64,000 bases of DNA from Halorubrum sp. DM2 (GTDB lineage: Archaea; Halobacteriota; Halobacteria; Halobacteriales; Haloferacaceae), in contig NZ_LR594487.1 in assembly GCF_901686465.1 (NCBI RefSeq), forward strand, positions 1,175,650-1,239,649, read 5' to 3'. The notes under the pieces were generated by a model that was given only the letters and a program-made list of their open reading frames with translations, was not told the origin of the DNA and made no database searches. Positions 15,437-31,223 of this stretch are shown here, in pieces. A program made the translations under genes and the position numbers. Position 1 is the stretch's first letter. The number at the start of each line of letters is the position of its first letter.

Positions 15437-16663
15437 ATGTCGAACGAAGACACGGCACACGAGGCACCGACGCGGCGAGACTACGTGAAGTACGGCGGGA
15501 CGGTCGTCGGCGGGGGACTGCTCGCCGGGTGTACTGGAGATGGGGGTGGAGACAGTCCTGAGACCGACACCTCGACGGAGGGATCGACGAATGAAGAGAC
15601 GGAAAATCCTGAGGATGCGTCCTACTCGGTGAATATGTCGCCTGTCGGGACGGTCGAATTCAAGGAACCTCCACAGAGCATCTTCACCGTCCTCGTCCAT
15701 CATGCCGATATGGCGCTCGCACTCGGATACGGCGACGCGATTAATGCGATGTACTCTCCCACAGAGTTCGATAGTCGCTACCGGTTATTCCTTGATCGTT
15801 TAGATGGTGTTTCTATTGATTGGTCGGACCTAGACAACGCTTGGAACATAGGTAAAGAGAGACTCTACGATCTAGACAGCGATATTCACCTCACAGATCC
15901 GGCCTATGTCGTGGCACAGATGGACAACTGGGACGTGGCAGACACCGAAGAAGTCCGAGAGAACATCGCCCCTTGGTTCGGAAACACACTAAGCGGGGAA
16001 CACAGCCAAGCCCCGTCGCCGTGGACGGACGACTACCAATACTACACGCTTTGGGAGATCTTCGAGAAGGTATCGAAGGTTTTCCAGGAGGAGCGACGGT
16101 ATCAGGTACTTACAGAGATTCACTCGAACCTCGTCTCAACTATCCAGTCGAATCTCCCGCCGGAGGTAGAACGGCCACGGACGGCATACCTGAACATCGC
16201 GCGAACTGGAATACAGGATGGGATCTGGGCGTACAGCCTGAACCAGCCAGGGTTCTTTCGCGCGAGTACTCGACCCCTAAGGGCGAATGATGCTTTCCCG
16301 GATCTCAAGCAGTTCCAACGGATTGATCGAGAAGCGCTCGTCGCTGCCGACCCGGATGTCATTCTACGCACTGGTTCGATGGGAGAAGGCAGAAATTGGG
16401 CCGAAATTAAGAACGAACTCAAAAACGACCCGGTTACGCAGGAGATTCTGGCAGTCCAAAACGATCGGATACACCCGCTAGCGGTCCAATATGGTGGCCC
16501 TATTCTAAATCTCTTCCAGCTAGAAATGGCCGCAAAGGAACTCTATCCTGAGCGGTTCGGCCAATGGCCGTCGTACGATGGCGGCCGGTATCCCGACTTC
16601 TCACCCGAAGAACAACTGTTCGACCACCAGCGGGTCGCGGACATCATCAACGGAGACATCTAA
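15437..16663 (+). CDS. Fe-siderophore-type substrate-binding lipoprotein 1 (class A)
   Basis: 408 aa. Twin arginines at residues 13-14 and lipobox LLAGC with Cys32 predict Tat export and lipid anchoring. A Thr/Glu linker follows, then a PF01497-like two-lobe body. Class A markers are VHHADMALALGYGDAINAMY (about 95), LDSDIHLTDPAYV and IAPWFGNT. The second lobe carries LVAADPDVI and ends QLFDHQRVADIINGDI. First member of the array, leaderless behind box 2b and only 2 bp from the next SBP. Ligand unknown; a ferric chelate is inferred from the permease and the boxes. Confidence 0.88.
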   Translation: MSNEDTAHEAPTRRDYVKYGGTVVGGGLLAGCTGDGGGDSPETDTSTEGSTNEETENPEDASYSVNMSPVGTVEFKEPPQSIFTVLVHHADMALALGYGDAINAMYSPTEFDSRYRLFLDRLDGVSIDWSDLDNAWNIGKERLYDLDSDIHLTDPAYVVAQMDNWDVADTEEVRENIAPWFGNTLSGEHSQAPSPWTDDYQYYTLWEIFEKVSKVFQEERRYQVLTEIHSNLVSTIQSNLPPEVERPRTAYLNIARTGIQDGIWAYSLNQPGFFRASTRPLRANDAFPDLKQFQRIDREALVAADPDVILRTGSMGEGRNWAEIKNELKNDPVTQEILAVQNDRIHPLAVQYGGPILNLFQLEMAAKELYPERFGQWPSYDGGRYPDFSPEEQLFDHQRVADIINGDI

Positions 16664-16665
16664 CA

Positions 16666-17865
16666 ATGAGTAACAACCACGACACGATTCAATACGAGTC
16701 ACCGACACGACGAGACTACGTCAAGTACGGCGGCGCGGTCGTCGGGGGCGGGCTGCTCGCGGGTTGTACCGGCGAGACAAGTCAGGAGTCGACCACTGAA
16801 GCGGAGTCGACGACTGAGACCGATACCGCAACTGATGAATCGTACTCAGTGACGATGGAGCCGATGGGAACCGTCGAGTTCGACGAACCGCCGGAGACCT
16901 GGTCGGCCTTCCTCAGCACTTACGGCGACATGGGTATCGCCCTGGGCAAGGCCGACGGCCTCCGAGGACTCTGGAATCCCGAAACCATGCCGACCGCGTT
17001 CTACGACGCGCTGCCGGGCGTGGATATCTCGCTGGAGAACGTCACGGCCATCGCCGAGGGCGGCGAGTTCGACAAGGAGGTCTTCTACGAGCTCGACTCC
17101 GATGTCCACCTGATCGACCCCAACTGGCTCGGCATCCTCAACGACGACTGGACCGAGGACGATGCCGACGAGGTCGCGGCTAACGTCGGACCGTTTCTCG
17201 GCAACTACATCCGTCGACGCGGTGACGACTGGCACGACTACCAGTACTACTCGCTGTACGAGGCCTTCGGGGTCGTCGCCGAAGCCTTCGACGAGCGCGA
17301 GCGCTACGAGGCGTTCGCGTCGGTCCACGACGACGCACAGGAGACCATCGACGACTCGCTCCCACCGGCCGAAGAGCGACTGACCGTCGGATTAGTGTCG
17401 GTCAACTCCGACTTCGAGGCGGGTTCGTTCTACGTGTATCCCGTCCAGGGGGGGAATAACCACAAACAGTACCGCGACCTCGAAATGCGCGGTGCCTTTG
17501 ACGACCACATCGACGGAAGCTACGGCGAGTGGGACTACGAGCAGTTCTTGCAGGTCGACCCCGACGCCATCGTCTTCCAGTACGGCTTCTCGCACGTCTC
17601 GGCGGCCGAGTTCGAGTCCCGACTGGAGACTATGCGCGAGGACCCGGTCGGCAGCCAGCTGTCGGCCGTCCAGAACGACCGGCTGTATCGCGGTGGCGGC
17701 TCTTACCAGGGACCAATTGTCAACCTCTTCCAGACGGAGGCAGCGGCGAGGCAGTTCTACCCCAACGCCTTCGGTGAATGGGACGGGATGGATACTCTCC
17801 ACGCGGAGTCTCTCACGCTGTTCGATCGCCAGCGGATTGCAGACATCATCAACGGAGACATCTGA
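16666..17865 (+). CDS. Fe-siderophore-type substrate-binding lipoprotein 2 (class B)
   Basis: 399 aa from the ATG at 16666, 2 bp after the previous stop. RR at 15-16 and lipid Cys34. Class B body: YGDMGIALGKADGLRGLW, LDSDVHLIDPNWL, VGPFLGNYIRRR, WHDYQYYSLYEAFGVV. Unlike class A members it carries an Arg cluster next to the conserved GN motif, which could contact an anionic ligand (inference). It lacks the THHAGM-type His-His motif of class A. C-terminus FDRQRIADIINGDI. Confidence 0.88.
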   Translation: MSNNHDTIQYESPTRRDYVKYGGAVVGGGLLAGCTGETSQESTTEAESTTETDTATDESYSVTMEPMGTVEFDEPPETWSAFLSTYGDMGIALGKADGLRGLWNPETMPTAFYDALPGVDISLENVTAIAEGGEFDKEVFYELDSDVHLIDPNWLGILNDDWTEDDADEVAANVGPFLGNYIRRRGDDWHDYQYYSLYEAFGVVAEAFDERERYEAFASVHDDAQETIDDSLPPAEERLTVGLVSVNSDFEAGSFYVYPVQGGNNHKQYRDLEMRGAFDDHIDGSYGEWDYEQFLQVDPDAIVFQYGFSHVSAAEFESRLETMREDPVGSQLSAVQNDRLYRGGGSYQGPIVNLFQTEAAARQFYPNAFGEWDGMDTLHAESLTLFDRQRIADIINGDI

Positions 17866-17867
17866 AC

Positions 17868-19097
17868 ATGAGGGATAACGACGCGAGCGAGACGAGTCGA
17901 CGGGAGGCACCGACACGGCGAGACTACGTGAAATACGGCGGGTCGGTTGTCGGTGGGGGACTACTCGCAGGCTGTACCGGCGGCAGCGGTGACGAGTCGA
18001 CCAGCGAATCGGCCACGGCAAGTGAGTCGACCGAGTCAACCGAGGAAAACACCTCCTACGAGGTGTGTATATCGCCGGTCGGGTGTGTCGAGTTCGACAG
18101 TGTCCCCGATCGGGTGCTAACCTACAGTATAAATTACGTCGACATGGCGGTAGCTTTTGGCTACGGTGAAGCCATTAACGCAATGCCGACGGAGCGCCTT
18201 TACACTGGATATTACGACCAGTTACCCGATGTCGAATTTGACCCATCTACGCGGATGACGAGCAGTTACGACAACAAGGAACTCATCTATGATGTCGATC
18301 CCGACCTCATCTTACTCGATCCGACGTGGTTCTCCATTTATAACGAGTACTACGACTTTGATGAGGACGATGTCGAGGAGATCGAAGAGAACGTGGCTTC
18401 CTACTTCGGGAATCGGTTCTCGCGGTCGCACAACAATCGAGTCGATCAAAGCGTCGAGAATTACGAATTCTACACTGCTTGGGAGTTATACAACAAGGTT
18501 GCACAGGTGTTCCGTGAGACCGAGAAGCAGCAGGCGTTAAAACGCGTTCGTGACGATCTTGTATCACTTGTCGAAGCCAACCTCCCGCCTGAGGACGAAC
18601 GCCCGACGGTGGCGCTAGTTGCGATGAACGACTGGGGTGTGTTCTCGCCGTACAAAATCGACAACGAGGGATACGGCGTCTCACACTACCGGCCGCTCGG
18701 CGTACGAGATGTTTTCGCCGAGAGCGACCGCACGTACGAATCGGACGCAGGAACGTACGACCTCGAAGCGATGCTTGAAATCGATCCAGACGTTCTCATT
18801 CACAACTTTGGCACGGGCGGATTCGACGAACGGTATCAGTCGATGCTCGAACTCAAAGACGATCCGGTTGGCTCAGAGTTGAGCGCGGTACAGAACGATC
18901 GGCTATACGGTGGCGGAGATTCGATGCAGGGCCCGATATACAATATCTTCCAGATAGAGATGGCGGCAAAGCAGATCTACCCTGAGCAGTTTGGAGCGTT
19001 CCCGACCTACAATGACGATGGGACCTACGATATCCCGGAAGACGAACAGCTGTTCGACCGCCAGCGGGTCGCAGACATCATTAACGGAGACATCTGA
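17868..19097 (+). CDS. Fe-siderophore-type substrate-binding lipoprotein 3 (divergent body)
   Basis: 409 aa, RR at 17-18, lipid Cys36. The first 75 residues are nearly identical to those of the protein at 23742 (GGSGDES linker, ENTSYEVC). The body fits neither main class: YVDMAVAFGYGEAINAMPTE, VDPDLILLDPTWF, VASYFGNRFSRSH. The signal and linker therefore appear to have been exchanged between paralogues. It keeps the QLFDRQRVADIINGDI ending. It is followed after 2 bp by a flavoprotein that may act on its cargo. Confidence 0.87.
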   Translation: MRDNDASETSRREAPTRRDYVKYGGSVVGGGLLAGCTGGSGDESTSESATASESTESTEENTSYEVCISPVGCVEFDSVPDRVLTYSINYVDMAVAFGYGEAINAMPTERLYTGYYDQLPDVEFDPSTRMTSSYDNKELIYDVDPDLILLDPTWFSIYNEYYDFDEDDVEEIEENVASYFGNRFSRSHNNRVDQSVENYEFYTAWELYNKVAQVFRETEKQQALKRVRDDLVSLVEANLPPEDERPTVALVAMNDWGVFSPYKIDNEGYGVSHYRPLGVRDVFAESDRTYESDAGTYDLEAMLEIDPDVLIHNFGTGGFDERYQSMLELKDDPVGSELSAVQNDRLYGGGDSMQGPIYNIFQIEMAAKQIYPEQFGAFPTYNDDGTYDIPEDEQLFDRQRVADIINGDI

Positions 19098-19099
19098 AC

Positions 19100-20038
19100 G
19101 TGGACGAAGCCACCGTACAAGCCGGTACTGACTTCGACCACGATCTCGTCATCGTCGGTGGCGGCCCAGCGGGTTGCTCGGCCGGGATCTTTACTGCCCG
19201 GTACGGACTCGACACCGTCATCTTCGACCGGGGACGCTCTTCGCTCCAACGACTCGCCCACCTCGAGAACTACCCCGGCTTCCCAGCGGGAATCGATATC
19301 GAGACGTTCTACGATCTACTACACGACCACGCTGAGACGGCCGGCTGTACGATCGTCCCCGATCTGGTCGAGACGATCGAACAGGACAGATCAGGGTTCG
19401 CCATCGAACCCCAGGACGGAGAGCATGTTACCGCCCGCCGGGTGATCGCCGCTACGCGCTACGACGCCGAGTACATGCGCGGACTCGGAGACGATGAGGC
19501 GATGTTCGAGACGTACGAGCACGATGGCGAGGAACACGAACGCTTCGATCGCGAGTATCCCGAAATGGACGGGACGACCCCGGTCGATGGTCTCTACATC
19601 GCCTCGCCGTCGGAAGAGGCGGACGCACAGGTAATCATCGCCGCCGGACGGGGCGGACGGGTCGCAACACAACTCATCAGGAACGTTCGACTCGAAGACG
19701 AGGGATTCTGGGAGGAGGTCGTCGATCACCACCGCGATTGGGTGTTTCTCGAAGAGGGCTACGGAGACGACGACTGGGAAGGGAAGGTCCGAAAGCACTT
19801 CAGAGAGACGATTCCAGAGAACTCGGATCACAGCAATGCGAAACTCGACCTGCTAGAAGATCAGCACGTCGCTGAGAAGCTCTCACAGCTTATGAGCCGA
19901 GAAGAGCAGGATGAGCGCCGGACCGAAGGGCAGCGGGCGCTTGCAACTCGGCTTGACGACGACGTACTGCGTGCGGAACTTGAATCACGGGAACTACTCG
20001 GAGCGGGAGCGGTGGCAGACGGAAATAGCGGTGACTAA
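19100..20038 (+). CDS. FAD flavoprotein lacking the NAD(P) domain, copy 1
   Basis: 312 aa from a GTG 2 bp after the SBP stop. N-terminal Rossmann motif VIVGGGPAGCSAGIF with RYGLDTVIFDRG, then HLENYPGF as in thioredoxin reductase-like FAD proteins. The segment VDGLYIASPSEEADAQVIIA resumes the FAD domain directly, so the central NAD(P)H domain and its CxxC are missing. A helical extension of about 110 residues begins HHRDWVFLEEGYG. It cannot be a thioredoxin reductase. Likely a flavin-dependent reductase taking electrons from a separate donor, perhaps reducing imported ferric complexes (inference). Confidence 0.8.
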   Translation: MDEATVQAGTDFDHDLVIVGGGPAGCSAGIFTARYGLDTVIFDRGRSSLQRLAHLENYPGFPAGIDIETFYDLLHDHAETAGCTIVPDLVETIEQDRSGFAIEPQDGEHVTARRVIAATRYDAEYMRGLGDDEAMFETYEHDGEEHERFDREYPEMDGTTPVDGLYIASPSEEADAQVIIAAGRGGRVATQLIRNVRLEDEGFWEEVVDHHRDWVFLEEGYGDDDWEGKVRKHFRETIPENSDHSNAKLDLLEDQHVAEKLSQLMSREEQDERRTEGQRALATRLDDDVLRAELESRELLGAGAVADGNSGD

Positions 20039-20039
20039 A

Positions 20040-21272
20040 ATGAGTGATAACGACACTAATGACACGATTCGACACGAGGCACCGACACGGCGCGACACGA
20101 TCAAGTACGGTGGCAGCGCCATCGGGGCGAGCCTGCTTGCGGGCTGTAGCGGAGATTCAGGCTCTGACGCGGCGTCCGAAGACACACAGACGGAGACGAA
20201 TACGTCGACGGAGGAGACCAAACCCGATGACGAGAGCTACTCGGTGACGATGGAACCTGTCGGTACCGTCGAGTTCGAGTCGGTTCCGGAGACGTGGATG
20301 GCGATTACGGGGCCCTGGGCGGATATGGCGATTGCGCTCGGACAGCGCGATGGGTTCCTCCCGGCAGGCTTCTACCCGCCAGGATACCTGTACGAGCGCG
20401 TCGGCGTCTCGATGCCAACAGAGGTTCCGAATCCACTCGCGGGAGGCGGCTGGGACCAAGAACTGTTCTACGAACTCGATCCAGACGTGATTCTCTGTGA
20501 TCCGAACTACCTGCACGGAACCGGGTTCGACAGCTCTTGGGACGAAACCGACACGGAGAGTATCGCGACGAACGTCGCACCCTTCTTCGGGAACAACATC
20601 GTCCGCCGTCGAGAGTTTCACGACTACGAACTCTACTCGATGTACGAGGCGTTCGATCGACTGGCTGATGTCTTCGACGAACGCGAACGGCACGAGGCGT
20701 TCGTCGAGGTTCACGACGACCTCCGCGCCGAAATCGATTCGAAACTGCCGCCCGAGAGTGAGCGCCCCGAAGTCGGACTAGTAAACTTCGGATCCGATCT
20801 CCAGGCCGGTGAGTTCGCCGCCATGACGACCGACTCCGAGGGGACCGAAATGAAGCAGTATCGAGACCTCGGAATCGAAAGCACGTTCAGCGAGGAACAA
20901 ACCGACGGGATGCTCGATTACGAGTCGATGGCGGAGATCGATCCCGACATCATCGTTATCCATGGCGGGATCCGCCTGACCGACGACGACGGCGAGTTCT
21001 CGGCGGAGGCGTTCCGTGAGCAGTTTGTCACGCCACTCAACGAGCACCCCATCGGCAGCCAGCTTACCGCCGTCGAGAACGACGCGGTCTATCCCGGCCC
21101 GTACTTCCTACAGGGGCCGATTGCGAGCCTCTTCCAGACTGAACTCGTCGCACGGCTGTTGTATCCGGATGCGTTCGGTACGTTCGATCCGGTACAGTTC
21201 CCAGATGTTCCGGCCGAGGAACAGCTGTTCGACCGCCAGCACGTTACGGACATCATCAACGGAGACATCTGA
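20040..21272 (+). CDS. Fe-siderophore-type substrate-binding lipoprotein 4 (class B)
   Basis: 410 aa from the ATG at 20040, 1 bp after the flavoprotein stop. RR at 17-18, lipid Cys36 (LLAGC). Body closest to the protein at 27456: WADMAIALGQRDGFLPAGF, LDPDVILCDPNYLHGTGFDS, VAPFFGNNIVRRREFHDYEL. The Arg triplet after GNN is shared. The linker TETNTSTEE matches the class A protein at 24971, another sign of end swapping. C-terminus QLFDRQHVTDIINGDI. Confidence 0.88.
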   Translation: MSDNDTNDTIRHEAPTRRDTIKYGGSAIGASLLAGCSGDSGSDAASEDTQTETNTSTEETKPDDESYSVTMEPVGTVEFESVPETWMAITGPWADMAIALGQRDGFLPAGFYPPGYLYERVGVSMPTEVPNPLAGGGWDQELFYELDPDVILCDPNYLHGTGFDSSWDETDTESIATNVAPFFGNNIVRRREFHDYELYSMYEAFDRLADVFDERERHEAFVEVHDDLRAEIDSKLPPESERPEVGLVNFGSDLQAGEFAAMTTDSEGTEMKQYRDLGIESTFSEEQTDGMLDYESMAEIDPDIIVIHGGIRLTDDDGEFSAEAFREQFVTPLNEHPIGSQLTAVENDAVYPGPYFLQGPIASLFQTELVARLLYPDAFGTFDPVQFPDVPAEEQLFDRQHVTDIINGDI

Positions 21273-21274
21273 CA

Positions 21275-22489
21275 ATGAGTGATAATAATGTGAATCGACG
21301 GGAGGCACCGACGCGGCGAGAGTACGTGAAGTACGGCGGCGCGGTCGTCGGCGGTGGCCTGCTCGCCGGGTGTACCGGCAACGCTGACGACGGCGCGACC
21401 GAAGATACCGAGAACACTGGGGGCACACCCACCAACTCGACGACTGACGATACGACCGAGAACGAGGACGGGCCCGAACCGTACACCGCGTCGATCGAGC
21501 CGGTGGGCGAGGTGACGTTCAAGCGACCGCCCGAGCGGTGGGTCGCGTACGACGGCGGCTACGCGGATATGGCGGTCGCGCTCGGTCAGGGCGACGGCCT
21601 CACGGGACTCGGCTACGCACCGCGGTACTACACGTACGTGTACGACGAGCTGCCTGGCGTCGGCGTTGACCGCGACGCCGTTGAGGCGCACCCGGAGGTT
21701 CGGACGAAAGAGGAGTTCTACGAGCTGGACGCCGACGTACACCTCTACGACCCGCAGATGCTCGTCAACTGGTTCGACTGGGACGACGACGACGTCGACG
21801 AGATCACCGAGAACGTCGCGCCGTTCTTTGGGAATCTGATCTTCCGACGTTCCGACGAGTGGCACGACTACCGCTACTACACGCTGTACGAGGCGTTCGA
21901 GCGAGTCGCTACCGTGTTCGACGAGACGGCGCGCTTCGAGGCGTTTGCCGCGCTTCACGACGAGTTCATCGCCGACCTACAGACCCGGCTGCCTCCGGTC
22001 GACGAGCGGCCGAACGTGTTCCTCACCTTCGAGGGCACCGAGGAGCCGGAGACCTTCTCCCCGTACCGCCTGATCGACAAAGGCACGAGCAAGAAACAGT
22101 GGCGCGATCTGGGCGTCACCGACGCGCTTGCGGGCACCGACATCGAGAACCTCAGTACGAGCAATCGCGGCGAACTCGACTACGAAAACCTTCTCGAAGT
22201 CGATCCAGACGTGATCCTCATTCGGGGCCACGAGCGGAAATCGGCCCAAGAGTTCCGCGACACCGTCCTCGCGTACATGAAAGACCACTCGGTCGGCAGC
22301 GAACTTGCGGCCGTACAGAATGGTCGCGTATACCGCGGCGGCTATCTCAATCAGGGACCGATTCACAACCTGTTCCTCACCGAACGGGCGGCCAAGCAGA
22401 TCTACCCCGAAGAGTTCGGTGACGTGACCGGCAACGAACAGCTGTTCGACCGCCAGCGGGTTGCGGACATCGTTAACGGAGACATCTAA
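21275..22489 (+). CDS. Fe-siderophore-type substrate-binding lipoprotein 5 (class B)
   Basis: 404 aa, RR at 14-15, lipid Cys33. Body: YADMAVALGQGDGLTGLGYA, LDADVHLYDPQML, VAPFFGNLIFRRSDEWHDYR. Higher GC and codon bias than the array mean. The C-terminal lobe lacks the Tyr/Pro insert seen in class A and ends GDVTGNEQLFDRQRVADIVNGDI. Its nearest relative here is the protein at 16666. Spacing to both neighbours is 2 bp. Confidence 0.88.
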   Translation: MSDNNVNRREAPTRREYVKYGGAVVGGGLLAGCTGNADDGATEDTENTGGTPTNSTTDDTTENEDGPEPYTASIEPVGEVTFKRPPERWVAYDGGYADMAVALGQGDGLTGLGYAPRYYTYVYDELPGVGVDRDAVEAHPEVRTKEEFYELDADVHLYDPQMLVNWFDWDDDDVDEITENVAPFFGNLIFRRSDEWHDYRYYTLYEAFERVATVFDETARFEAFAALHDEFIADLQTRLPPVDERPNVFLTFEGTEEPETFSPYRLIDKGTSKKQWRDLGVTDALAGTDIENLSTSNRGELDYENLLEVDPDVILIRGHERKSAQEFRDTVLAYMKDHSVGSELAAVQNGRVYRGGYLNQGPIHNLFLTERAAKQIYPEEFGDVTGNEQLFDRQRVADIVNGDI

Positions 22490-22491
22490 GA

Positions 22492-23739
22492 ATGAGTGAC
22501 AACGACAACGCGATTCGACACGAGGTATCGACACGAAGAGAGTACATCAAGTACAGTGGTGCGGTCGTCGGTAGTGGGCTGCTGGCCGGCTGTACCGGAA
22601 ACAGCACCGATAGCGACAACGCCGATACCGACACCACGACATCGACGGAGACGACGAATTCATCGATGGACTCCGACGAGGAAACGGACACCGCCGAAGA
22701 CGCGGCGTATTCGGTTTCGATGTCCCCGGCCGGGATGGTCGAGTTCGAGTTGCCTCCGGAGACCGTGTTCACACGGCTGACTCACCACGCCGGGATGGCG
22801 TTCGCACTCGGCCGGGGCGACGGCGTCAACGCCATGCACGCGCCGGACTACTACGACGCGCTCTGGAACCAGTTCGTCGAGCGGCTTCCGGGCGTTTCGC
22901 TGGACTGGTCGGGGCTGTACTCCTCGTGGGACCCTGACAAGGAGGTGTTGTACGAACTCGACAGCGACCTCCACTTGGCGGACCCCGCCTCGGTGGCCGC
23001 GCTGGACAGTTGGGACGACGACGACGTAGACGAGATCACTGAGGCGGTCGGCCCGTGGTTCGGAAACTCGTTCAGCGACCGTCATCAAGAACCGCCCGAA
23101 GGCTGGGCCGACGACTACGAGTATTACACGCTCTGGGAGCAGTTCGAACATGTTTCCCGAGCGTTCCAAGAGGAATCTCGGTACCGCGAGTTGGCATCGA
23201 TCCGAGAATCGCTGCTCGACACTATCGAAGCCGAGGTCCCATCGGCCTCGGACCGTCCGACTGTGGCGCTGGCCGGGATGAGCGATATTGAGAGCATATA
23301 CGTCTACACGGCAAATGCTCCGGGATTCTTGACGGCGCACCTGCGTCCGTTCGATCCGGTGGATGCGTTCGATGGCGCTGTTGCCTCCGGTGAACAGGTC
23401 GACATGGAGGCGATGCTTGAGGCCGATCCGGATGTCATCTTCTCACTCGGCGGTATGGCACCGAGCACGGACATGGTGGCGATCCGGGAGAGCCTCCGCG
23501 ATCACCCCATCGGTGGAAGCCTCACCGCGGTCCAGACCGATCGCGTGTACGCACAAGGAGCGCGGTACCAGGGTCCCATTCTGAACCTTTTCCAGCTGGA
23601 GATGACAGCTAAACAGCTATATCCCGAGCGGTTCGGTGAGTGGCCGACCTACGAGGAAGGACCGTATCCGGATATTCCGGACGGAGAGCAGCTGTTCGAC
23701 CGTGAGCGCCTCGCGGACATCATCAACGGAGACTTCTAA
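22492..23739 (+). CDS. Fe-siderophore-type substrate-binding lipoprotein 6 (class A)
   Basis: 415 aa, RR at 15-16, lipid Cys34. A serine- and acid-rich linker of about 45 residues precedes the body. Class A markers: LTHHAGMAFALGRGDGVNAM, LYSSWDPDKEVLYELDSDLH, VGPWFGNSFSDRH, then YYTLWEQFEHVSRAF. Variant ending FDRERLADIINGDF. The His-His pair near residue 100 recurs, conserved or as a single His, in all class A members and is a candidate ligand contact. Confidence 0.88.
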   Translation: MSDNDNAIRHEVSTRREYIKYSGAVVGSGLLAGCTGNSTDSDNADTDTTTSTETTNSSMDSDEETDTAEDAAYSVSMSPAGMVEFELPPETVFTRLTHHAGMAFALGRGDGVNAMHAPDYYDALWNQFVERLPGVSLDWSGLYSSWDPDKEVLYELDSDLHLADPASVAALDSWDDDDVDEITEAVGPWFGNSFSDRHQEPPEGWADDYEYYTLWEQFEHVSRAFQEESRYRELASIRESLLDTIEAEVPSASDRPTVALAGMSDIESIYVYTANAPGFLTAHLRPFDPVDAFDGAVASGEQVDMEAMLEADPDVIFSLGGMAPSTDMVAIRESLRDHPIGGSLTAVQTDRVYAQGARYQGPILNLFQLEMTAKQLYPERFGEWPTYEEGPYPDIPDGEQLFDRERLADIINGDF

Positions 23740-23741
23740 CA

Positions 23742-24968
23742 ATGAGTGATAACGACGCAAGCAAGACGAGTCGACGGGAGGCACCGACGCGACGGGACTA
23801 TGTGAAGTACGGCGGGGCGGTCGTCGGCGGGGGACTCCTCGCTGGCTGTACCGGCGGCAGTGGTGACGAGTCGGTCAGCGAATCGGCCGCGGCAAGCGAA
23901 TCGACCGAGTCGGCCGAGGAAAACACCTCCTACGAGGTGTGTATGTCACCGGTCGATTGCGTGGAGTTTTCAGAGCCGCCGGAAAGCGCGTTTACGGTTC
24001 TGCTCCACCACACCGATATGGCACTCGCTCTCGGCCACGGTGATGCGGTCAACGCCATGTATAGCCCCCAACTGTTCGGCAGGCTGTATAATATGTTTCT
24101 TGAGCATATCAACGGTGTCTCTGTCGACTGGGCAGATGTGCTCAATTCGTGGAACCCCGACAAAGAAACGCTGTACGAACTCGATAGCGACATCCACCTT
24201 GCAGATCCGGCGTACGTAACGAGCATGGACGCCTGGGATACCGAGGATATCGAAGAGATTCAGATGAACGTCGCTCCGTGGTTCGGAAACACGTTCAGTG
24301 ATCACCACAGGACCCCGCCAGAACCGTGGGCCGAGAAGTATCAGTACTACACGCTGTATGAGATTTTCGCGAAGGTAGCGGAGGTCTTCCAGCGACAAGA
24401 CCGGTACAAGGCGTTCGAAACGATACACTCGAATCTCGTCTCCGAGATCAGATCGAAGCGACCATCCGAATCGGATCGTCCACGAGTGGCACGCATACAG
24501 TTCGGTCTCTCGGACGGCGACCTCACGCTCTATCCGTTCAACATCAACGGACCAGGCTTCGAGCAAGCACACCTTCGTCCACTCGGTGTCGAAGATGCGT
24601 TTCCCGAACTAGAAGCGTATGCGACGGTCGACCTCGAAACGGTCGTTGAATCCGATCCCGATGTCATTCTCGCTACTCACGCGATGGGACCGGAACGAAA
24701 CTTCTCGGGAATTAAGGACGCTCTGAAATCTGATTCCGTGGCTCAGGAGATCTCGGCAGTCAAAAACAACCATATCTATCCGATGGCAATCCGGTACGGC
24801 GGCCCGATCGCGAACCTCTTCCAGTTAGAGATGGCCGCAAAGCAGGTCTATCCGAATCAGTTCGGTGAGTGGCCGGAGAACAGTGGCGGGTCATATCCCA
24901 AGTTTACGGAAGACGAACAGCTGTTCGACCGCCAGCGGGTTACAGACATCATTAACGGAGACATCTAA
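23742..24968 (+). CDS. Fe-siderophore-type substrate-binding lipoprotein 7 (class A)
   Basis: 408 aa, RR at 17-18, lipid Cys36. The leader and linker (GGSGDESVSESAAASE) are almost those of the protein at 17868, while the body is class A: LLHHTDMALALGHGDAVNAM, LNSWNPDKETLYELDSDIHL, VAPWFGNTFSDHH. Distal lobe includes VESDPDVILATHAMG. C-terminus QLFDRQRVTDIINGDI. It is one half of the clearest mosaic pair in the array. Confidence 0.88.
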   Translation: MSDNDASKTSRREAPTRRDYVKYGGAVVGGGLLAGCTGGSGDESVSESAAASESTESAEENTSYEVCMSPVDCVEFSEPPESAFTVLLHHTDMALALGHGDAVNAMYSPQLFGRLYNMFLEHINGVSVDWADVLNSWNPDKETLYELDSDIHLADPAYVTSMDAWDTEDIEEIQMNVAPWFGNTFSDHHRTPPEPWAEKYQYYTLYEIFAKVAEVFQRQDRYKAFETIHSNLVSEIRSKRPSESDRPRVARIQFGLSDGDLTLYPFNINGPGFEQAHLRPLGVEDAFPELEAYATVDLETVVESDPDVILATHAMGPERNFSGIKDALKSDSVAQEISAVKNNHIYPMAIRYGGPIANLFQLEMAAKQVYPNQFGEWPENSGGSYPKFTEDEQLFDRQRVTDIINGDI

Positions 24969-24970
24969 TC

Positions 24971-26194
24971 ATGAGTGACAGCGACAAAAGCAAGACGAGT
25001 CCACAGGAAGCACCGACGCGACGGGATACGATTAAGTACGGCGGGGCGGTCGTCGGTGGCGGACTGCTCGCTGGGTGTATCGGAGACTCGGACTCCGATG
25101 CAACACCCGAACAGACAGAAACCGAGACGAACACGTCGACAGAGGAGACCGAAACCGAGGATAGCAGCTACTCGGTGACGATGGCACCGATGGGGACCGT
25201 CGAATTCGAGAAGCCTCCCGAACGAGTGTTCACAGACCTAACTCATCACGCGGGAATGGCACTCGCGCTCGGTCATGGAGACGCAGTGACTGCGACATGG
25301 GGGGGAGAGAGATTCGGTCCGATCTGGAACAACGTTCTCGATGGCGTCGACGGCGTGTCAGTCGACTGGTCGGACCTCCCGGGTGGGTTTAATCCTGATA
25401 AGGAACTGTTCTACGAACTCGACAGCGACCTCCATCTCGCTGACCCGGCGTACGCGACGTGGATGGAGACGCTAACCGCCGACGATGTCGCGGAGATCGA
25501 GTCGAATATCGCTCCGTGGTTCGGAAACACGTTCAGTAACGGTCACGCAGAACCGCCTGAGGAGTGGGCCGATCGGTACGAGTACTACACGCTCTGGCAA
25601 ATTTTTGAACAGGTCGCACAAGTGTTCGATGAGCGAGAACGGTACGAGTCGCTGGCCTCAATCCGGTCATCAATGGGCGAGTTGATTGAAAATGAGCGTC
25701 CAACGGAGGAAGAACGACCGACGGTCGCAAGTGTCCAACCGTACAACGATGCGTTCTGGGGATACCAGATCAATGCGCCCGGCTTCCTGTACTCGCACAC
25801 TCGGCCGTTCGAGGCGCAGGATGCGTTTGCGCCCGTTCTTGACGAGAGCGGAGAGGTGGATCTTGAGGTATTGGTAGATGTCGATCCAGATGTTATTCTG
25901 GTAGTGGATTCAATCGGAGGATCCCGTATTAAAAATGTCCGAAGCCAGCTAGAATCGGATCCGGTTGGAGAACAACTCTCAGCGGTCGAAACAGGCCGCG
26001 TTCATGCGGGTGGCGTCAGGAACCAGGGGCCGATCCTAAACCTATTCCAGCTGGAAATGACGGCAAAGCAGTTGTATCCCGAGCAGTTTGGCACGTGGCC
26101 CGAGTACCAAGGTGGACCCTACCCAGAAATTCCCGAAGACGAACGGCTGTTCGACCGCCAGCGCGTCGCAGACATCATCAACGGAGACAGCTGA
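24971..26194 (+). CDS. Fe-siderophore-type substrate-binding lipoprotein 8 (class A)
   Basis: 407 aa, RR at 17-18, lipid Cys36 (LLAGC). Linker TETETNTSTEETETEDSS is like that of the class B protein at 20040. Body class A: LTHHAGMALALGHGDAVTAT, GGFNPDKELFYELDSDLHLA, IAPWFGNTFSNGH, YYTLWQIFEQVAQVFDER. Ends RLFDRQRVADIINGDS. It contains no premature stop or frame disturbance, so it should be functional. Confidence 0.88.
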   Translation: MSDSDKSKTSPQEAPTRRDTIKYGGAVVGGGLLAGCIGDSDSDATPEQTETETNTSTEETETEDSSYSVTMAPMGTVEFEKPPERVFTDLTHHAGMALALGHGDAVTATWGGERFGPIWNNVLDGVDGVSVDWSDLPGGFNPDKELFYELDSDLHLADPAYATWMETLTADDVAEIESNIAPWFGNTFSNGHAEPPEEWADRYEYYTLWQIFEQVAQVFDERERYESLASIRSSMGELIENERPTEEERPTVASVQPYNDAFWGYQINAPGFLYSHTRPFEAQDAFAPVLDESGEVDLEVLVDVDPDVILVVDSIGGSRIKNVRSQLESDPVGEQLSAVETGRVHAGGVRNQGPILNLFQLEMTAKQLYPEQFGTWPEYQGGPYPEIPEDERLFDRQRVADIINGDS

Positions 26195-26196
26195 AC

Positions 26197-27453
26197 GTGA
26201 ACGAAGACAACACAAATCAAACGAACCCACTAACCCGAAGAAACGCGATCAAGTACGGCGGCACACTCGCCGGTACGGGACTGCTCGCTGGCTGTACCGG
26301 ACAGTCACAGGAGGAGCCGAGTTCGGAGTCGACGCCGACCAACGAGTCGGGAGACGGGAGCGACGAGTCAGAGGAATCGACCGACACCGAAGAGTCGACC
26401 GAGGAACCGACGTACACTGCCGAGCTGTCGCCGGTCGGCGAGGTCACACTCGAGGAGCCGCCAACCGACGTGTTCGCGCACTTCCCGTGGTTCGCTGACA
26501 TGGCGACCGCACTCGACCGCGGCGAGAGCGTCAACAACGTCTGGTGGGACGGCACCGCCTCGACGCTGGAGTACTTCACCGCCGGGCTCGACGACATCGA
26601 GATCGCGTGGCGAGACAGAACTGGTGCGTACGGGTTCGAGAAAGAGCAGCTGTACGAACTCGACAGCGACCTCCACCTCGTCGATCCCGCCTGGGTGACG
26701 ACCCAGGACAACTGGGCCCGAGAGGACATCGACGAGATCGCCGAAAACGTCGGTCCGTGGCTCGGTAACTACTACAGCAGCTTCCACCAGTCGCCGCCCG
26801 ACGAGTGGGCCGACGGCTACGAGTACCACCGGCTCTGGGACGTGTTCGAGCAGATCGGGAACCTGTACGGCGAGCGGACCCGGTACGAGCAGCTGCGGGC
26901 CGTTCACGACGATCTCCTCGACACCATCGAGGCTGGGCTTCCGCCGGAGGACGAGCGCCCGATCGCGGCGTACCTCTCGATCTCGACGGATCTGTCCGCG
27001 ATCTACGTGATCCGACTCAACGCGCCGGGGTACTTCAACGCCCACACCCGGCCGCTCGGGGCGGTCGACGCCTTCGGCGGCGAGGAGTGGGACGGCGCGT
27101 TCAAACAGGTCGACATGGAGGCCGTGCTGGAGGCCGACCCCGACGCGATCCTCGCGCTGTGGACGGTTACGGACGCCGTCGACTTCGAGCAGATGCACCA
27201 GAACCTCGCCGACGACCCCGTCGGCCGCGAGTTGGCGGCCGTCCGGAACGACCGAGTGACTGTTCAGGGGACGCGCTGGCAGGGACCGCTGATGAACCTC
27301 TTCCAGCTGGAGATGACCGCCAAGCAACTGTATCCGGAGCAGTTCGGCGCGTGGCCGACCTACGAGAACGGCGACACGTATCCCGAGTTCAGCCGCGAGG
27401 AGCAGCTGTTCGACCACCAGCGCGTTGCGGAGATCATTACCGGAGACGACTGA
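26197..27453 (+). CDS. Fe-siderophore-type substrate-binding lipoprotein 9 (class A)
   Basis: 418 aa from a GTG 2 bp after the previous stop; a longer upstream reading would run into the preceding gene. RR at 14-15, lipid Cys33. The linker is long and acidic (about 48 residues). Body is a class A variant: HFPWFADMATALDRGESVNN, LDSDLHLVDPAWV, VGPWLGNYYSSFH. The His-His pair is replaced by HFPW, so ligand preference may differ. C-terminus QLFDHQRVAEIITGDD. Higher GC than the flanking members. Confidence 0.87.
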   Translation: MNEDNTNQTNPLTRRNAIKYGGTLAGTGLLAGCTGQSQEEPSSESTPTNESGDGSDESEESTDTEESTEEPTYTAELSPVGEVTLEEPPTDVFAHFPWFADMATALDRGESVNNVWWDGTASTLEYFTAGLDDIEIAWRDRTGAYGFEKEQLYELDSDLHLVDPAWVTTQDNWAREDIDEIAENVGPWLGNYYSSFHQSPPDEWADGYEYHRLWDVFEQIGNLYGERTRYEQLRAVHDDLLDTIEAGLPPEDERPIAAYLSISTDLSAIYVIRLNAPGYFNAHTRPLGAVDAFGGEEWDGAFKQVDMEAVLEADPDAILALWTVTDAVDFEQMHQNLADDPVGRELAAVRNDRVTVQGTRWQGPLMNLFQLEMTAKQLYPEQFGAWPTYENGDTYPEFSREEQLFDHQRVAEIITGDD

Positions 27454-27455
27454 CG

Positions 27456-28727
27456 ATGAGCGACACCGACGATACCAACGACACGATTCGACAGGGGGCA
27501 TCGACGCGGAGAGAGACGATCAAGTACGGCGGAACGCTCGCGGGGATCGGACTACTGGCGGGCTGTACCGGCGGCGGTAGCGGATCCACGGAAGCCACGA
27601 GCGGAGACGGGGACGACGGCGACGAATCGACGGCGGAGCCCGAGGCCGACGAGTCTGAGGACGACGAACCGGAGTCGACGAGCTACGAGGCGTGTATCGA
27701 GCCGGCCGGCTGTCTCACCTTCGAGGAGGTCCCCGAGACGTACGCCGTGTACAACGGCGGCTGGGCCGACATGGCGTTCGCCCTCGGCCAGCGCGAGGGG
27801 TTCCTCACCGCCGGCAACATGATTCCCGGATTTTTTTTCGAGCCGTTCGGGCTCGACGTGCCACCACAGGACGAACTCCCGTCGATGTGGTCCGAGGGCG
27901 GCTGGGACAAGGAGAGCTTCTACGAGCTCGACCCGGACGTGTTCCTCATCGATCCGAACTACCTGCACGGGACCGGCTGGGACAGCAACTGGGACGAGTC
28001 CGATACCCAGGAGATCAACGACAACGTCGCGCCCTTCTTCGGGAACAACTGCCGGCGGCGGCGGGAGTTCCACGACTACAAGCTCTACACGCTGTACGAG
28101 GCGTTCGACCGGCTCGCCGACCTCTTCCAGGAGCGCGAGCGCTACGAGGCGTTCGTCGAGATTCACGACGAGCTACAGACCGAGATCGCCGACAGGCTCC
28201 CGCCCGAGAGCGAGCGGCCGGAAGTCGGACTCATCAACGGAGGTTCAAATCCCGCGAAGGGTGAGTTCTACCCGCTGAACACGAAAGACGAGGGGTACGA
28301 AATGAAGCCCTATCGGGACCTCGACGTGAAGAGCGCCTTCTCCCAAGAGCTTGAGGAGGGCGGCCAGATCGACTACGAGCGCCTGCTCGAGATCGACCCG
28401 GAGATCATCATCGTCCACTGGGGGATCGGGACGACCGGCGACACGGACTCCTTCTCCGCGGCGGCGTTCCGCAAGCAGTACGTGACGCCGATGGAGGAGG
28501 ACGCCGTCGGAAGCGAACTCACTGCCGTACAGGAGGGCAACGTCTACCCCGGCGCGTACGGCGAGCAGGGGCCGATCGTCAGCCTCCTCCAGACGGAGAT
28601 GAAGGCCCAGCAACTCTATCCCGAGGAGTTCGGTGAGTTCGATCCCGAGGCGTTCCCCGAGGTGCCCGAGGAAAACCAGCTGTTCGACCGCCAGCGGGTC
28701 CGCGACATCATCGCAGGTGACGTCTGA
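27456..28727 (+). CDS. Fe-siderophore-type substrate-binding lipoprotein 10 (class B)
   Basis: 423 aa, the longest member, from the ATG at 27456. RR at 18-19, lipid Cys37. The acidic linker spans about 45 residues. Class B body: WADMAFALGQREGFLTAGN, LDPDVFLIDPNYLHGTGWDS, VAPFFGNNCRRRREFHDYKL with four consecutive arginines. A Cys in the GNNC motif is unusual in the array. Ends QLFDRQRVRDIIAGDV. The small gene at 28728 starts on the very next base. Confidence 0.88.
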   Translation: MSDTDDTNDTIRQGASTRRETIKYGGTLAGIGLLAGCTGGGSGSTEATSGDGDDGDESTAEPEADESEDDEPESTSYEACIEPAGCLTFEEVPETYAVYNGGWADMAFALGQREGFLTAGNMIPGFFFEPFGLDVPPQDELPSMWSEGGWDKESFYELDPDVFLIDPNYLHGTGWDSNWDESDTQEINDNVAPFFGNNCRRRREFHDYKLYTLYEAFDRLADLFQERERYEAFVEIHDELQTEIADRLPPESERPEVGLINGGSNPAKGEFYPLNTKDEGYEMKPYRDLDVKSAFSQELEEGGQIDYERLLEIDPEIIIVHWGIGTTGDTDSFSAAAFRKQYVTPMEEDAVGSELTAVQEGNVYPGAYGEQGPIVSLLQTEMKAQQLYPEEFGEFDPEAFPEVPEENQLFDRQRVRDIIAGDV

Positions 28728-28901: not shown

Positions 28902-28902
28902 C

Positions 28903-29901
28903 ATGACCACGAAACCGACCGCCACAGCCGCGAGCGACCCGGACGCCCCAATAGACCACGATGTCGCGGTCGTCGGCGGCGGCGCTGCCGGACTCGCGGC
29001 CGCCGTCTTCACCGCACGCTACGGGCTCGACACGACGGTGTTCGACGGCGGCAAGGCGGCGATCACGCAGTGTGCCCACGTCGAGAACTACCTCGGGTTC
29101 CCGGGCGGCGTCAGCCCGGAGCGATTCCTCGAACTGGGTCGCGCGCAGGCGAGCCACGAGGGAGCGACGGTCCGCAACGAGCGTGTCACGGCCGTTCGCC
29201 CGTACGAGGCGGGGTTCGTCGTCGAGACGGTCGACGGCGAGCACGTCGCCGGGCGGGTCGTCGTCGCGGCCGCGTACGACGGCGACGTCTTCGCGCCGGT
29301 CGCCGAGGCGTTCGACGGGGCCACGTCTGACGCCGACGACGGTGACGACCGCGACGGCGGCGACAACGAGGGCAATGCGGACGAGGGCGGCGACGACGAC
29401 AGCGACGACGAACACGACATATTCGTCCCGAGCGACGCGGGTCGGACCGAGCTCGACGGGCTGTACGTCGCCGGCTGGATGAGCGACGAAACCGCCCACC
29501 AGATCGGGATCAACGCCGGGCACGGGGCTCGCGTTGGCCTGGCGCTCGCACGCGACGACATGAGCGAGCGCTACTGGCCCGCGGTCGGCGAGCGCTACGT
29601 CGACTGGGTCGTCCACGAGGAGCGGTACGGCGGCGACGGCTGGGACGAGCACGTCGACGAGTGGTTCGACCGCGAGATGCTCCCGGCCGATGGCGACCTC
29701 GATCAGGGAACGATCGACGCTGCCCGCGAGGACTTGAAGGCGGAGTTCCTCGGTCGGGGGATCGACGCGGACGAACGGGACCGCCGGGAGCGCGAGGGCC
29801 AACGGATGCTCCTCGACCACGTCGACAACGACCTGATCCGCGAGCGCGCGAGCGAACTCAAAGCGAGTGGGAGTGTAGGGGAGACTGAGAGCGTCCGGTA
29901 G
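28903..29901 (+). CDS. FAD flavoprotein lacking the NAD(P) domain, copy 2
   Basis: 332 aa from the ATG at 28903. FAD motif VAVVGGGAAGLAAAVFTARY and HVENYLGFPGG. The NAD(P) domain is replaced by an Asp/Gly-rich disordered loop of about 50 residues (DADDGDDRDGGDNEGNADEG) before LDGLYVAGWMSDETAHQIGI. The C-terminal extension YVDWVVHEERYGGDGW resembles copy 1. No CxxC. Its last codons end the second transcription unit; the next gene has its own iron box. Confidence 0.8.
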   Translation: MTTKPTATAASDPDAPIDHDVAVVGGGAAGLAAAVFTARYGLDTTVFDGGKAAITQCAHVENYLGFPGGVSPERFLELGRAQASHEGATVRNERVTAVRPYEAGFVVETVDGEHVAGRVVVAAAYDGDVFAPVAEAFDGATSDADDGDDRDGGDNEGNADEGGDDDSDDEHDIFVPSDAGRTELDGLYVAGWMSDETAHQIGINAGHGARVGLALARDDMSERYWPAVGERYVDWVVHEERYGGDGWDEHVDEWFDREMLPADGDLDQGTIDAAREDLKAEFLGRGIDADERDRREREGQRMLLDHVDNDLIRERASELKASGSVGETESVR

Positions 29902-29956
29902 GAGCGCTATCTGTTTCCCGTCGATCGCGGCCGTTTACACCGGTACATTTTTGTAT

Positions 29957-29974
29957 TTTTAGGTTGACCTAAAA
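29957..29974 (+). promoter_or_regulatory. DtxR/IdeR-type iron box 3
   Basis: TTTTAGGT-TG-ACCTAAAA, a perfect 8-bp-arm palindrome and the best in the window. It lies between a TATA-like ttgtattttt and the leaderless ATG at 29979. Confidence 0.8.
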
Positions 29975-29978
29975 TTGT

Positions 29979-31223
29979 ATGCCGAAAGATGACGCGGCAC
30001 ATGAGGCACCGACGCGGCGAGACTACATGAAGTACGGCGGGGCTGTGGTTGGCGGCGGGTTGCTCGCTGGCTGTGCGGGGCAGTCTGATTCCGGATCGAC
30101 GCCGACTGAGACGGATAGTGGCGAGACAGAGACGGACACATCGACAGAAGAGAGTGAACCCGAGGACACGAGCTACTCGGTCACAATGGAACCAGTCGGT
30201 GAGGTGACCTTCGAGTCCGTTCCCGAGGAAATAATCGGTCACGGAGCTTCCACTGAGGCTGCTATCACCCTTGGACATGGCGACGCGGTTGTGAATACGG
30301 TCAGTGAAGGTGGCGGCTTATATACCGGATTCCTGAACCGTCTTCCTGATGTTTCGTTCCCAGATATCGACAATATGAGTGGGGTCCGAAACGAAGGGGC
30401 ACTCAACAAGGAGCAAGTTTACGAGGTCGATCCGGATCTGATCGGGATCGATCCGAACTGGCTGCTCACGTGGGCCTCCGCGGAGCCCTCCGACATCGAG
30501 GAGATCACCGGGAACGTCGCGCCGTTCTTTGGGAACTTCAGCCGCGAGAAGCGGGCCGACGACTGGGCTAACTGGCCGAACGGGGAGTACGCCTACTATA
30601 GCATCTACGACCTCATGGAAAAGTGGGGGGAGATGTTCCAAGAGCCGGAGCGAGCCCGAGCACTGAACGAGATGGGCCAGTCGTTCTACGAACAGCTTCA
30701 GTCGGAGCTCCCGCCTGTTGACGAACGACCGACGGTCGGACTTCCCAATTCATTCGGGATCGGACTTGACCTGGATATCGTTTTGTACAGCCTACAGACG
30801 GAAATCGACATAGCGAGCGGAAAGAAGCAGTACCAAGATATCGGCGTCACGGACGCCTTCGAGGGCTTCTACGACGGGAAGGCCCGGGCGACTGTAGATT
30901 ACGAGGCGATGCTCGAGTACGACCCCGATGTCCTCCTGCTTCACTTCGCTATCACCGGTCCGGAGACGTACCGCAAGGCGGTCGAAAAGCTACAAAATGA
31001 CCCGGTTGCCAGCCAACTGAGCGCCGTTCAGAACGACCGGGTCTATCCGGGCAGCTTCATCAACCACGGTCCGGTCAGCTACATGTTCCAAACGGAGATG
31101 GCAGCCAAGCAGGTGTACCCGGACATCTTCGGCGAGTTCCCCGGACTCGGCGAGCCCGTTCCTGAAAGCGAACAGCTGTTCGACCGCCAGCGCGTCGCGA
31201 ACATCATCAACGGCGATATTTAA
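29979..31223 (+). CDS. Fe-siderophore-type substrate-binding lipoprotein 11 (class B-like)
   Basis: 414 aa, RR at 13-14, lipid Cys32. It is the only SBP after the first with its own box and promoter, so it may respond separately. Body: TEAAITLGHGDAVVNTVSEG, VDPDLIGIDPNWLLTWASAE, VAPFFGNFSREKRADDW. It combines the class A-like GHGDAV with the class B-like basic segment after GN. Ends QLFDRQRVANIINGDI. A flavoprotein follows after 3 bp. Confidence 0.88.
   Translation: MPKDDAAHEAPTRRDYMKYGGAVVGGGLLAGCAGQSDSGSTPTETDSGETETDTSTEESEPEDTSYSVTMEPVGEVTFESVPEEIIGHGASTEAAITLGHGDAVVNTVSEGGGLYTGFLNRLPDVSFPDIDNMSGVRNEGALNKEQVYEVDPDLIGIDPNWLLTWASAEPSDIEEITGNVAPFFGNFSREKRADDWANWPNGEYAYYSIYDLMEKWGEMFQEPERARALNEMGQSFYEQLQSELPPVDERPTVGLPNSFGIGLDLDIVLYSLQTEIDIASGKKQYQDIGVTDAFEGFYDGKARATVDYEAMLEYDPDVLLLHFAITGPETYRKAVEKLQNDPVASQLSAVQNDRVYPGSFINHGPVSYMFQTEMAAKQVYPDIFGEFPGLGEPVPESEQLFDRQRVANIINGDI

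Follow-up and report, generated by a model that had tools for sequence, protein, structure and literature searches.

The 64,000 nucleotides analysed here (the window; positions 1,175,650 to 1,239,649 of contig NZ_LR594487.1 of Halorubrum sp. DM2) contain eleven genes for substrate-binding proteins (SBPs) of family PF01497, S1 to S11, at 15437-31223, downstream of a gene for a FecCD-type permease and a gene for its ATPase. The initial annotation had described eleven intact lipoproteins of the twin-arginine translocation (Tat) type in one orientation, and this was borne out: all eleven open reading frames (ORFs) are intact, lie on the + strand and pass the PF01497 cut-off of 27.5 bits (range 32.5-60.8). 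In all of them the lipobox cysteine comes 18 residues after the second arginine of the RR pair (in S2 by alignment), and the gap is 2 bp at all eight direct SBP-SBP junctions. The shared ending that had been reported holds as a consensus but not as an exact string, as FDRQRVADIINGDI is found in S3 alone and the other ten SBPs deviate from it at 1-4 positions. A FecCD permease and an ATPase do accompany the array, but the gene of an ATP-binding cassette (ABC) exporter intervenes before S1, and what was described as one cassette array is interrupted by the flavoprotein genes OX1 and OX2, with S11 set apart from S1-S10 behind its own operator. The three flavoproteins and the DtxR-type palindromes had been overlooked. 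The features are as follows.

10178..11185, + strand: HEAT-repeat protein (PF13646), a recurrent neighbour of the importer in relatives
11193..11242: operator pair before unit 1, TTTGGCTGGCCTAA (1 mismatch) and TTAGGTGAGCCTAA (exact)
11403..12527, + strand: FecCD permease (PF01032, 298.9 bits)
12529..13470, + strand: importer ATPase, FecE/FhuC-like (PF00005, 103.5 bits; top NCBIfam match FecE, under its cut-off)
13467..15377, + strand: ABC exporter-type protein with transmembrane and nucleotide-binding domains (PF00664 and PF00005)
15381..15430: exact operator palindromes TTAGGTTCACCTAA and TTAGGTAAGCCTAA at a spacing of 36 bp, the latter stopping 6 nt 5' of the S1 start codon
15437..16663, + strand: SBP S1 (PF01497, 39.9 bits)
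16666..17865, + strand: SBP S2 (PF01497, 36.1 bits; body 85% amino acid identity to Natrinema salsiterrestre)
17868..19097, + strand: SBP S3 (PF01497, 32.5 bits; body 91% amino acid identity to Natrinema versiforme; signal and tail S7-like)
19100..20038, + strand: OX1, truncated thioredoxin-reductase-like flavoprotein (PF07992, 28.3 bits, above cut-off)
20040..21272, + strand: SBP S4 (PF01497, 43.6 bits; body 97% amino acid identity to Halomicrobium katesii)
21275..22489, + strand: SBP S5 (PF01497, 54.1 bits; body 95% amino acid identity to H. katesii)
22492..23739, + strand: SBP S6 (PF01497, 40.5 bits; S6-S8 block not in the H. katesii array)
23742..24968, + strand: SBP S7 (PF01497, 60.8 bits; folded, model with a predicted local distance difference test score, pLDDT, of 88.1)
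24971..26194, + strand: SBP S8 (PF01497, 33.1 bits)
26197..27453, + strand: SBP S9 (PF01497, 43.2 bits; body 95% amino acid identity to H. katesii)
27456..28727, + strand: SBP S10 (PF01497, 41.8 bits; body 92% amino acid identity to Halobaculum sp. CBA1158)
about 28903..29901, + strand: OX2, flavoprotein (PF07992, 32.0 bits; start codon taken from alignment)
29959..29972: exact operator palindrome TTAGGTTGACCTAA, 6 nt 5' of the S11 start
29979..31223, + strand: SBP S11 (PF01497, 54.4 bits; the most divergent; model pLDDT 76.3)
31227..31958, + strand: OX3, flavoprotein following S11 (PF07992, 45.8 bits)
34028..34438, + strand: DtxR/MntR-family metal-dependent regulator (PF01325 above cut-off, PF02742 slightly under)
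34473..34486: exact operator palindrome TTAGGCCTACCTAA, 3' of the regulator gene

Whole-protein identity to S1 ranges from 37 to 58%. The ratio of non-synonymous to synonymous substitution rates (dN/dS) of the receptor bodies against their relatives was 0.07-0.20 in nine of the ten comparisons, which covered S1-S10; S8 is the saturated tenth, and the values are rough for S1, S6 and S7, where dS is above 1. The receptor genes are therefore maintained under purifying selection. Chance or a gene-calling artefact was ruled out by the PF01497 scores, by repeat family D1, which has 11 copies, one at each SBP gene start, and by the low dN/dS of the bodies.

The locus contains what defines a FecCD/BtuCD-type importer, namely a transmembrane subunit, an adjoining ABC ATPase and PF01497 SBPs with a lipoprotein/Tat signal, and the closest solved chain to its permease is FhuB (7lb8, E 1.2e-68). 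The array is real and well formed, and within an importer type that is widespread among haloarchaea it is very large. We consider it probable that it encodes an ABC importer for ferric siderophores, repressed by iron and with a large exchangeable set of receptors, and that the locus was acquired and its receptor bodies recombined.

Receptors, docking residues and permeases

Structure models were made for two of the eleven SBPs, S7 and S11, and both have the two-lobed fold of siderophore SBPs. S7 resembles HtsA, YiuA, YfiY with schizokinen, CeuE, FeuA and YclQ (Z 19.5-22.7 among its top 50 matches), and S11 belongs to the same fold family. In an alignment of 70 SBPs (the eleven of the array and 59 picked by hand out of 120 candidates) only 14 columns are invariant, among them the Tat arginines and the lipobox cysteine, which are likewise invariant among the eleven, and two glutamates, E142 and E299 in S7 numbering. 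Each of these is close to the start of a predicted helix in the S7 model, and they align with the glutamates in SLEKVLETEPDLI and SWEAIIDANPDVI of the solved chain 4mlz. Both, one per lobe, are kept in all eleven SBPs of the array, and we take them to be docking residues of the kind of BtuF E72/E202, which contact permease arginines in BtuF-BtuC. Because E142 and E299 are among so few invariant columns, the alignment suggests that the ligand-binding bodies vary and the presumed docking points do not, and all eleven SBPs could feed the FecCD permease of the window. The array offers eleven receptors that presumably share a single docking interface, a natural set in which a rule of specificity versus docking is directly testable.

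The genome is a single contig of 3.45 Mb in which 15 PF01497 genes and three FecCD genes are above the cut-offs; one of the three FecCD genes is in the array, and a fourth match, at 18.6 bits, is under the cut-off. These numbers rule out that every SBP has a permease of its own at another place in the genome, which was the check that the initial annotation had proposed. Array-type SBPs, scored with the array profile at 1e-40, number 13 in the genome, the eleven and two more at 2403668 and 2408212, which flank the second FecCD gene at 2406078 (the native locus, 2.40-2.41 Mb), whose product has 74% amino acid identity to the window FecCD. With receptors far outnumbering permeases, the choice of iron chelates in haloarchaea, which lack an outer membrane, may be set by the binding lipoprotein and not by the channel.

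For siderophore synthesis, neither an IucA/IucC match nor a condensation domain of nonribosomal peptide synthetases (NRPS) was found in the genome, in a search that covered these two families, and the use of xenosiderophores fits this result. Halobacterium salinarum is described, in the sections of PMC7407949 cited here, as making no siderophore, yet several foreign siderophores promote its growth. A receptor repertoire for ferric chelates served by few permeases, as had been proposed, agrees with the operators, the siderophore-SBP-like folds and the docking glutamates. As for the ligand classes named in that proposal, ferric chelates are favoured, and haem or corrinoids are neither favoured nor excluded.

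Operators and predicted iron regulation

The operator consensus TTAGG(Y)NN(R)CCTAA (TTAGGYNNRCCTAA) is what we take to be a DtxR-type box; it may differ from the signal of haloarchaeal FerR, the regulon of which Leyn and Rodionov reportedly studied in 2015. The exact palindrome occurs five times in the window and not once in 100 shuffles. Four copies are directly 5' of units (11229, 15381, 15417 and 29959), and those at 15417 and 29959 finish 6 nt before a start codon. Significance lies in the exact form only, as the pattern with three mismatches has 19 places in the window against a chance mean of 29. In the 3.45 Mb of the genome there are 20 exact palindromes, against one for the reversed control: five in the array locus, three in the native locus, eight at 4-30.1 kb, three around 1.95 Mb and one at 1.49 Mb. 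At least one palindrome was present in 33 of 34 comparison stretches and a pair 33-37 bp apart in 18 of them; these stretches include the native locus, and several come from the same genomes. Operator-like palindromes, as in a FerR/DtxR regulon, are thus found upstream of the transport units, and each of the presumed transcription units appears to be preceded by them. S1-S10 with OX1 run behind one operator pair with gaps of 1-2 bp. In Haloferax volcanii the fhu genes bear the ferR regulon signal, and five FhuD SBPs and one permease are up under iron starvation (PMC11349517, in the sections cited here).

In the model that we favour, a DtxR-family repressor would leave the operators under iron limitation. 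There would be three transcripts in that state, one of permease, ATPase and exporter, one of S1 to S10 and OX1 (perhaps also OX2), and one of S11 and OX3. Anchored in the membrane, the eleven Tat lipoproteins would then catch different ferric chelates, mostly xenosiderophores because no synthesis gene of the NRPS-independent siderophore or NRPS type was found. The two glutamates that all of them conserve would serve for docking on the FecCD permease that they share, and possibly also on its native paralogue. The three flavoproteins are plausibly candidate iron reductases that would aid iron release through reduction, and the ABC exporter may export a siderophore or a product. This Halorubrum would have gained the locus from a Halomicrobium-like lineage, and the receptor bodies would be old types common to haloarchaea, traded through homologous recombination within the conserved ends of the genes. 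The ligands, the regulation, the sharing of the permease, the role of the flavoproteins, the direction of transfer and the mechanism of exchange are the parts of this model that we infer.

Two further stretches touch on this regulation. The first 40 kb of the contig (C1:1-40000) has its eight palindromes near genes for an ABC ATPase with a TOBE domain, a permease and an SBP_bac-family protein, with a GMC oxidoreductase and a PAS histidine kinase also near them, and is probably a second iron-regulated island. Moreover, a block of OX3, DUF7551, DtxR and a CitMHS-like transporter (window 31497-36391) is repeated at C1:6106-14673 with 83-89% nucleotide identity, and this second copy is in a stretch of low guanine-cytosine (GC) content that is rich in iron-type operators.

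Origin of the locus and of its receptor bodies

The host is a Halorubrum because 4.1 kb around its RNA polymerase B domain has 95.6% nucleotide identity to Halorubrum coriense and 94.1% to Hrr. saccharovorum, against 81.5% to H. katesii and at most 86.9% across the 12 other genera compared. The window FecCD gene, in contrast, has 90.6% nucleotide identity to H. katesii (97% at the amino acid level) and at most 82.2% to any Halorubrum locus compared, while the four best matches of the native FecCD stretch are all from Halorubrum (87-93%). The GC content is 0.615 in the locus and 0.57 in the window outside it, against 0.67-0.73 in eight of ten other chromosomal stretches; the remaining two stretches, at 0.61, are the operator-rich first 40 kb of the contig. 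Downstream, within 4-22 kb, there are genes of the transposase, integrase-like, IS605 OrfB and TraG-like kinds, and acquisition fits this neighbourhood and the low GC content. The array locus is most likely foreign to this Halorubrum and laterally acquired, with a direction and a date that we infer.

The receptor bodies point to a wider set of relatives. Among 188 complete SBPs from 42 hand-chosen loci, the nearest body relative was outside the own locus for 187, and for all eleven of the window; a same-locus relative was nearest once, against 4.6 times expected by chance. Ten of the eleven window SBPs have a body match of at least 0.60 identity outside the window, and six have one of at least 0.85, in other genera; S11 has no close relative (0.42 to its best match outside the window). 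H. katesii, which has the nearest relative of the locus, provides the best body match for S4, S5 and S9 only. The others have theirs in comparison genome G202 (S1), Natrinema salsiterrestre (S2), Natrinema versiforme (S3), Haloterrigena salina (S6), Haladaptatus (S7), Natrialba aegyptia (S8) and Halobaculum (S10), and by quarter of the body S2 and S3 have 78-91% nucleotide identity to Natrinema, as S10 has to Halobaculum. By these comparisons, recent duplication in place does not account for the array, and its receptor types are shared across distant haloarchaea.

The gene ends behave differently from the bodies. The DNA of OX1-S4-S5 is mostly 90-100% identical to that of H. katesii; this homology stops in the tail of S5 (near 22400-22460), restarts in the tail of S8 (near 26120-26180) and stops again in the tail of S9, so that the S6-S7-S8 block, present here and not in H. 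katesii, has both junctions in conserved tails. S3 has 84-91% nucleotide identity to Natrinema versiforme in its body, against 65% in the signal, 26% in the linker and 75% in the tail, and 88% (signal) and 96% (tail) identity to S7 of the same array, with which repeat family D8 agrees. Identity at fourfold-degenerate sites among the window SBPs is 0.66 in tails, 0.51 in signals and 0.38 in bodies. The excess over the body was reached in 0 of 400 random sets for tails and in 4 of 400 for signals, the sets being drawn from 11 other arrays with genomes mixed and codon usage controlled only through the difference to the body. None of the 17 genes scanned between 11403 and 31958 codes for a site-specific integrase; outside the array, at 42767-44017, there is a gene with a phage-integrase SAM-like domain.

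Other histories of the array can be weighed against these results. Diversification by duplication had been proposed, and tandem duplication in place with later divergence, the conserved ends being an ancestral remnant, would explain why signal, tail and mostly 2-bp spacing are common to all members and why silent-site likeness is greater in the ends than in the bodies. An ancient duplication series must also underlie the receptor types themselves. However, no window SBP has its closest body relative within the window, the close relatives listed above are in other genera, and the bodies of S2, S3 and S10 match Natrinema and Halobaculum at the nucleotide level; as a local event duplication finds no support in types that distant haloarchaea share and in a locus that looks like a laterally acquired mosaic, and we regard this history as very unlikely. 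Hardly less improbable is vertical descent, in which an early haloarchaeon already had a large array, most lineages lost it, and the window is a relic and not an assembly. Natrialba aegyptia, Natrinema versiforme and genome G337 do have the S3, S4 and S5 types in the same relative order after FecCD, ATPase and exporter (the exporter being only a fragment in Natrinema versiforme), and the types are widespread, as 300 of 392 genomes of the order match the array profile at 1e-20. Such inheritance is difficult to reconcile with identities that surpass the divergence of RNA polymerase B (S3 88% to Natrinema at the nucleotide level against 82%; OX1-S5 mostly 90-100% to Halomicrobium against 81.5%), with the separate Halorubrum-type importer locus that the host retains, with the low GC content and mobile genes, and with a PF01497 total that is above ten in no other of the 39 genomes of the genus.

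It is also unlikely, though less so, that only a few receptors use the window permease and that the rest are passengers, partners of the native permease, or sensors and scavengers for haem, corrinoid or molybdate-like ligands. Broken members are known in relatives (a split SBP in locus L139, fragments in L171 and in H. katesii), haem and molybdate SBPs have the same fold (2r7a, 3psa), and in H. volcanii five of the 11 FhuD paralogues are up more than 4-fold under iron starvation (PMC11349517, sections cited). Against this stand the eleven intact SBPs with both docking glutamates, the low dN/dS, and the tight run of S1 to S10 with OX1 behind a single operator pair.

Several points weigh against the importer reading that we prefer. 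The native locus provides a second permease of the same type with two SBPs, so the single channel that the receptors had been said to feed, of which the array does hold one FecCD gene, may be two. The ligand is not fixed by the fold because the haem SBP (2r7a) and the molybdate SBP (3psa) are among the structure matches. An NCBIfam substrate name was above cut-off for none of three SBPs scanned, and S7 touches, below cut-off, the NCBIfam models for F420-0 and haem (IsdE). Flavoproteins were found in 43 of 66 named permease loci with an SBP and are thus not obligatory. On the H. katesii scaffold the permease half is about 1.4 Mb from the receptor half; either tight linkage of permease and receptors is not essential or that draft is misassembled. 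The nearest-neighbour count is biased towards other loci by related species in the set; it disfavours duplication of recent date and leaves ancient duplication untouched. For signals and linkers, fast evolution may be explanation enough. Finally, the tail values fall short of the body values in L119 and L120 and roughly match them in L139, whereas L122, L140 and L145 have a tail excess as in the window; we hold end recombination to be likely in the window array and unproven as a general rule.

Of most interest is a possible movement of receptor bodies from one array to another in the manner of cassettes, which we hold to be possible, with the balance tilted slightly against it. Haloarchaea might then have a common pool of receptor bodies that they trade horizontally, an 'integron without an integrase', with single bodies and blocks of receptors swapped behind a common permease through the conserved 5' and 3' ends and the 2-bp gaps; we put this forward tentatively. 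The permease region, S4, S5 and S9 would have come from a Halomicrobium-like donor, and the S3 body, set within ends common to S3 and S7, from a source of Natrialbaceae type; the S6-S8 block would have been inserted (or lost) at tail-to-tail junctions, with the window among the largest snapshots. The siderophore-piracy repertoire of a lineage would shift by cassette exchange and not by mutation, and this, if true, could be a mechanism for its fast evolution without site-specific recombinases.

Size range, related systems and neighbouring genes

The initial annotation knew of no described array of this size; read as a claim of unprecedented size, this is overstated: at least 11 SBPs are in one array of Natrialba aegyptia, and Haloferax volcanii has 11 paralogous FhuD SBPs with two paralogous permeases (PMC11349517, in the sections cited). 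In the open-licence papers searched, no paper on a tandem array of this kind was found. Among 39 genomes of the genus, a sample of a larger group that includes the present one, the PF01497 count is highest here (15; next 10 and 8). A match to the array profile at 1e-40 was found in 66 of 88 genomes of the order, with at most 21 candidates scored per genome, and the largest totals were 14, 13 (this genome) and 11. At 80 named permease loci, bounded at 10 kb on each side or by contig ends, the longest run of SBP ORFs, fragments included, was 0 in 14, 1 in 27, 2 in 19, 3 in 11 and 4 in six, with runs of 6, 7 and 8 in one locus each. Longer stretches contained at least 11 SBPs in Natrialba aegyptia, 10 genes in G337, where one is broken up into two ORFs, and 8 each in Natrinema versiforme and in G202 (for G202 the stretch read is without a permease); the further 20-kb stretches were selected for SBP richness and give no frequencies. 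The window array is at the top of a continuous size range.

Natrialba aegyptia DSM 13077 (NZ_AOIP01000060.1; L101, L119) has, like the window, a HEAT-repeat gene, FecCD, ATPase and exporter, and then at least 11 SBPs in the same direction, 10 complete and the last one cut by the contig end, which the array reaches. Counterparts of S3 (82% amino acid identity), S4 (73%), S5 (70%) and others are present, but composition and order differ, and the stretch read has no flavoprotein match. On a second contig of this strain (L171), a decayed second SBP lies beside a HEAT-repeat gene; array-type members also die. H. katesii (L024/L170, L121) is very close at the amino acid level (OX1 97%, S4 96%, S5 93%, S9 94%, OX3 92%, DtxR 96%, FecCD 97%), but has five complete SBPs in its run, without S6-S8, and in its permease half the exporter and an SBP are truncated. 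Unless its draft is misassembled, H. katesii thus has the window locus in rearranged form.

The H. volcanii locus tags HVO_1464, A0557, and B0047, B0144 and B0198 presumably stand for three replicons. The fhu system of that species is similar in its many SBPs for few FecCD-type permeases, its operators of iron-repressor type and its predicted ferric-siderophore substrate; it differs in that the five induced SBPs carry those tags, against one locus here, and in its siderophore synthesis genes, where no IucA/IucC match was found here (PMC11349517, as far as the sections cited go). Gram-positive SBP (PBP2) repertoires, with 1-47 SBPs per genome, also comprise many SBPs for xenosiderophores and were read by their authors as siderophore piracy, but that work gives genome-wide bacterial counts, and the word 'tandem' is absent from its text (PMC13293324).

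The flavoproteins fit the thioredoxin reductase profile best in its first third, far under cut-off, and OX1 matches TIGR01292 over positions 1-116 of 300, also far under cut-off. The exporter-type gene between importer ATPase and receptors was seen again in L020, L023, L119, L128 and L139, and a gene annotated as HEAT-repeat or PDS5 is beside the importer in Natronorubrum, Haloterrigena and Natrinema loci, with matches in others too.

The window was without a match in an Rfam scan at gathering scores and without a tRNA; no tRNA integration site is therefore evident within it. The mobile genes at 38879-45913 (transposase, integrase-like, IS605 OrfB) include a 1.8-kb stretch with OrfB that has 93% nucleotide identity to Haloarcula mannanilytica. 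A 1651-residue protein with a C-terminal TraG/TraD match (51742-56697) suggests an integrated conjugative element. Directly 3' of the unit-1 operator there is a possible ORF of 52 residues (11248-11406) that overlaps the permease start, and in Natrinema versiforme a small ORF is likewise annotated before the permease.

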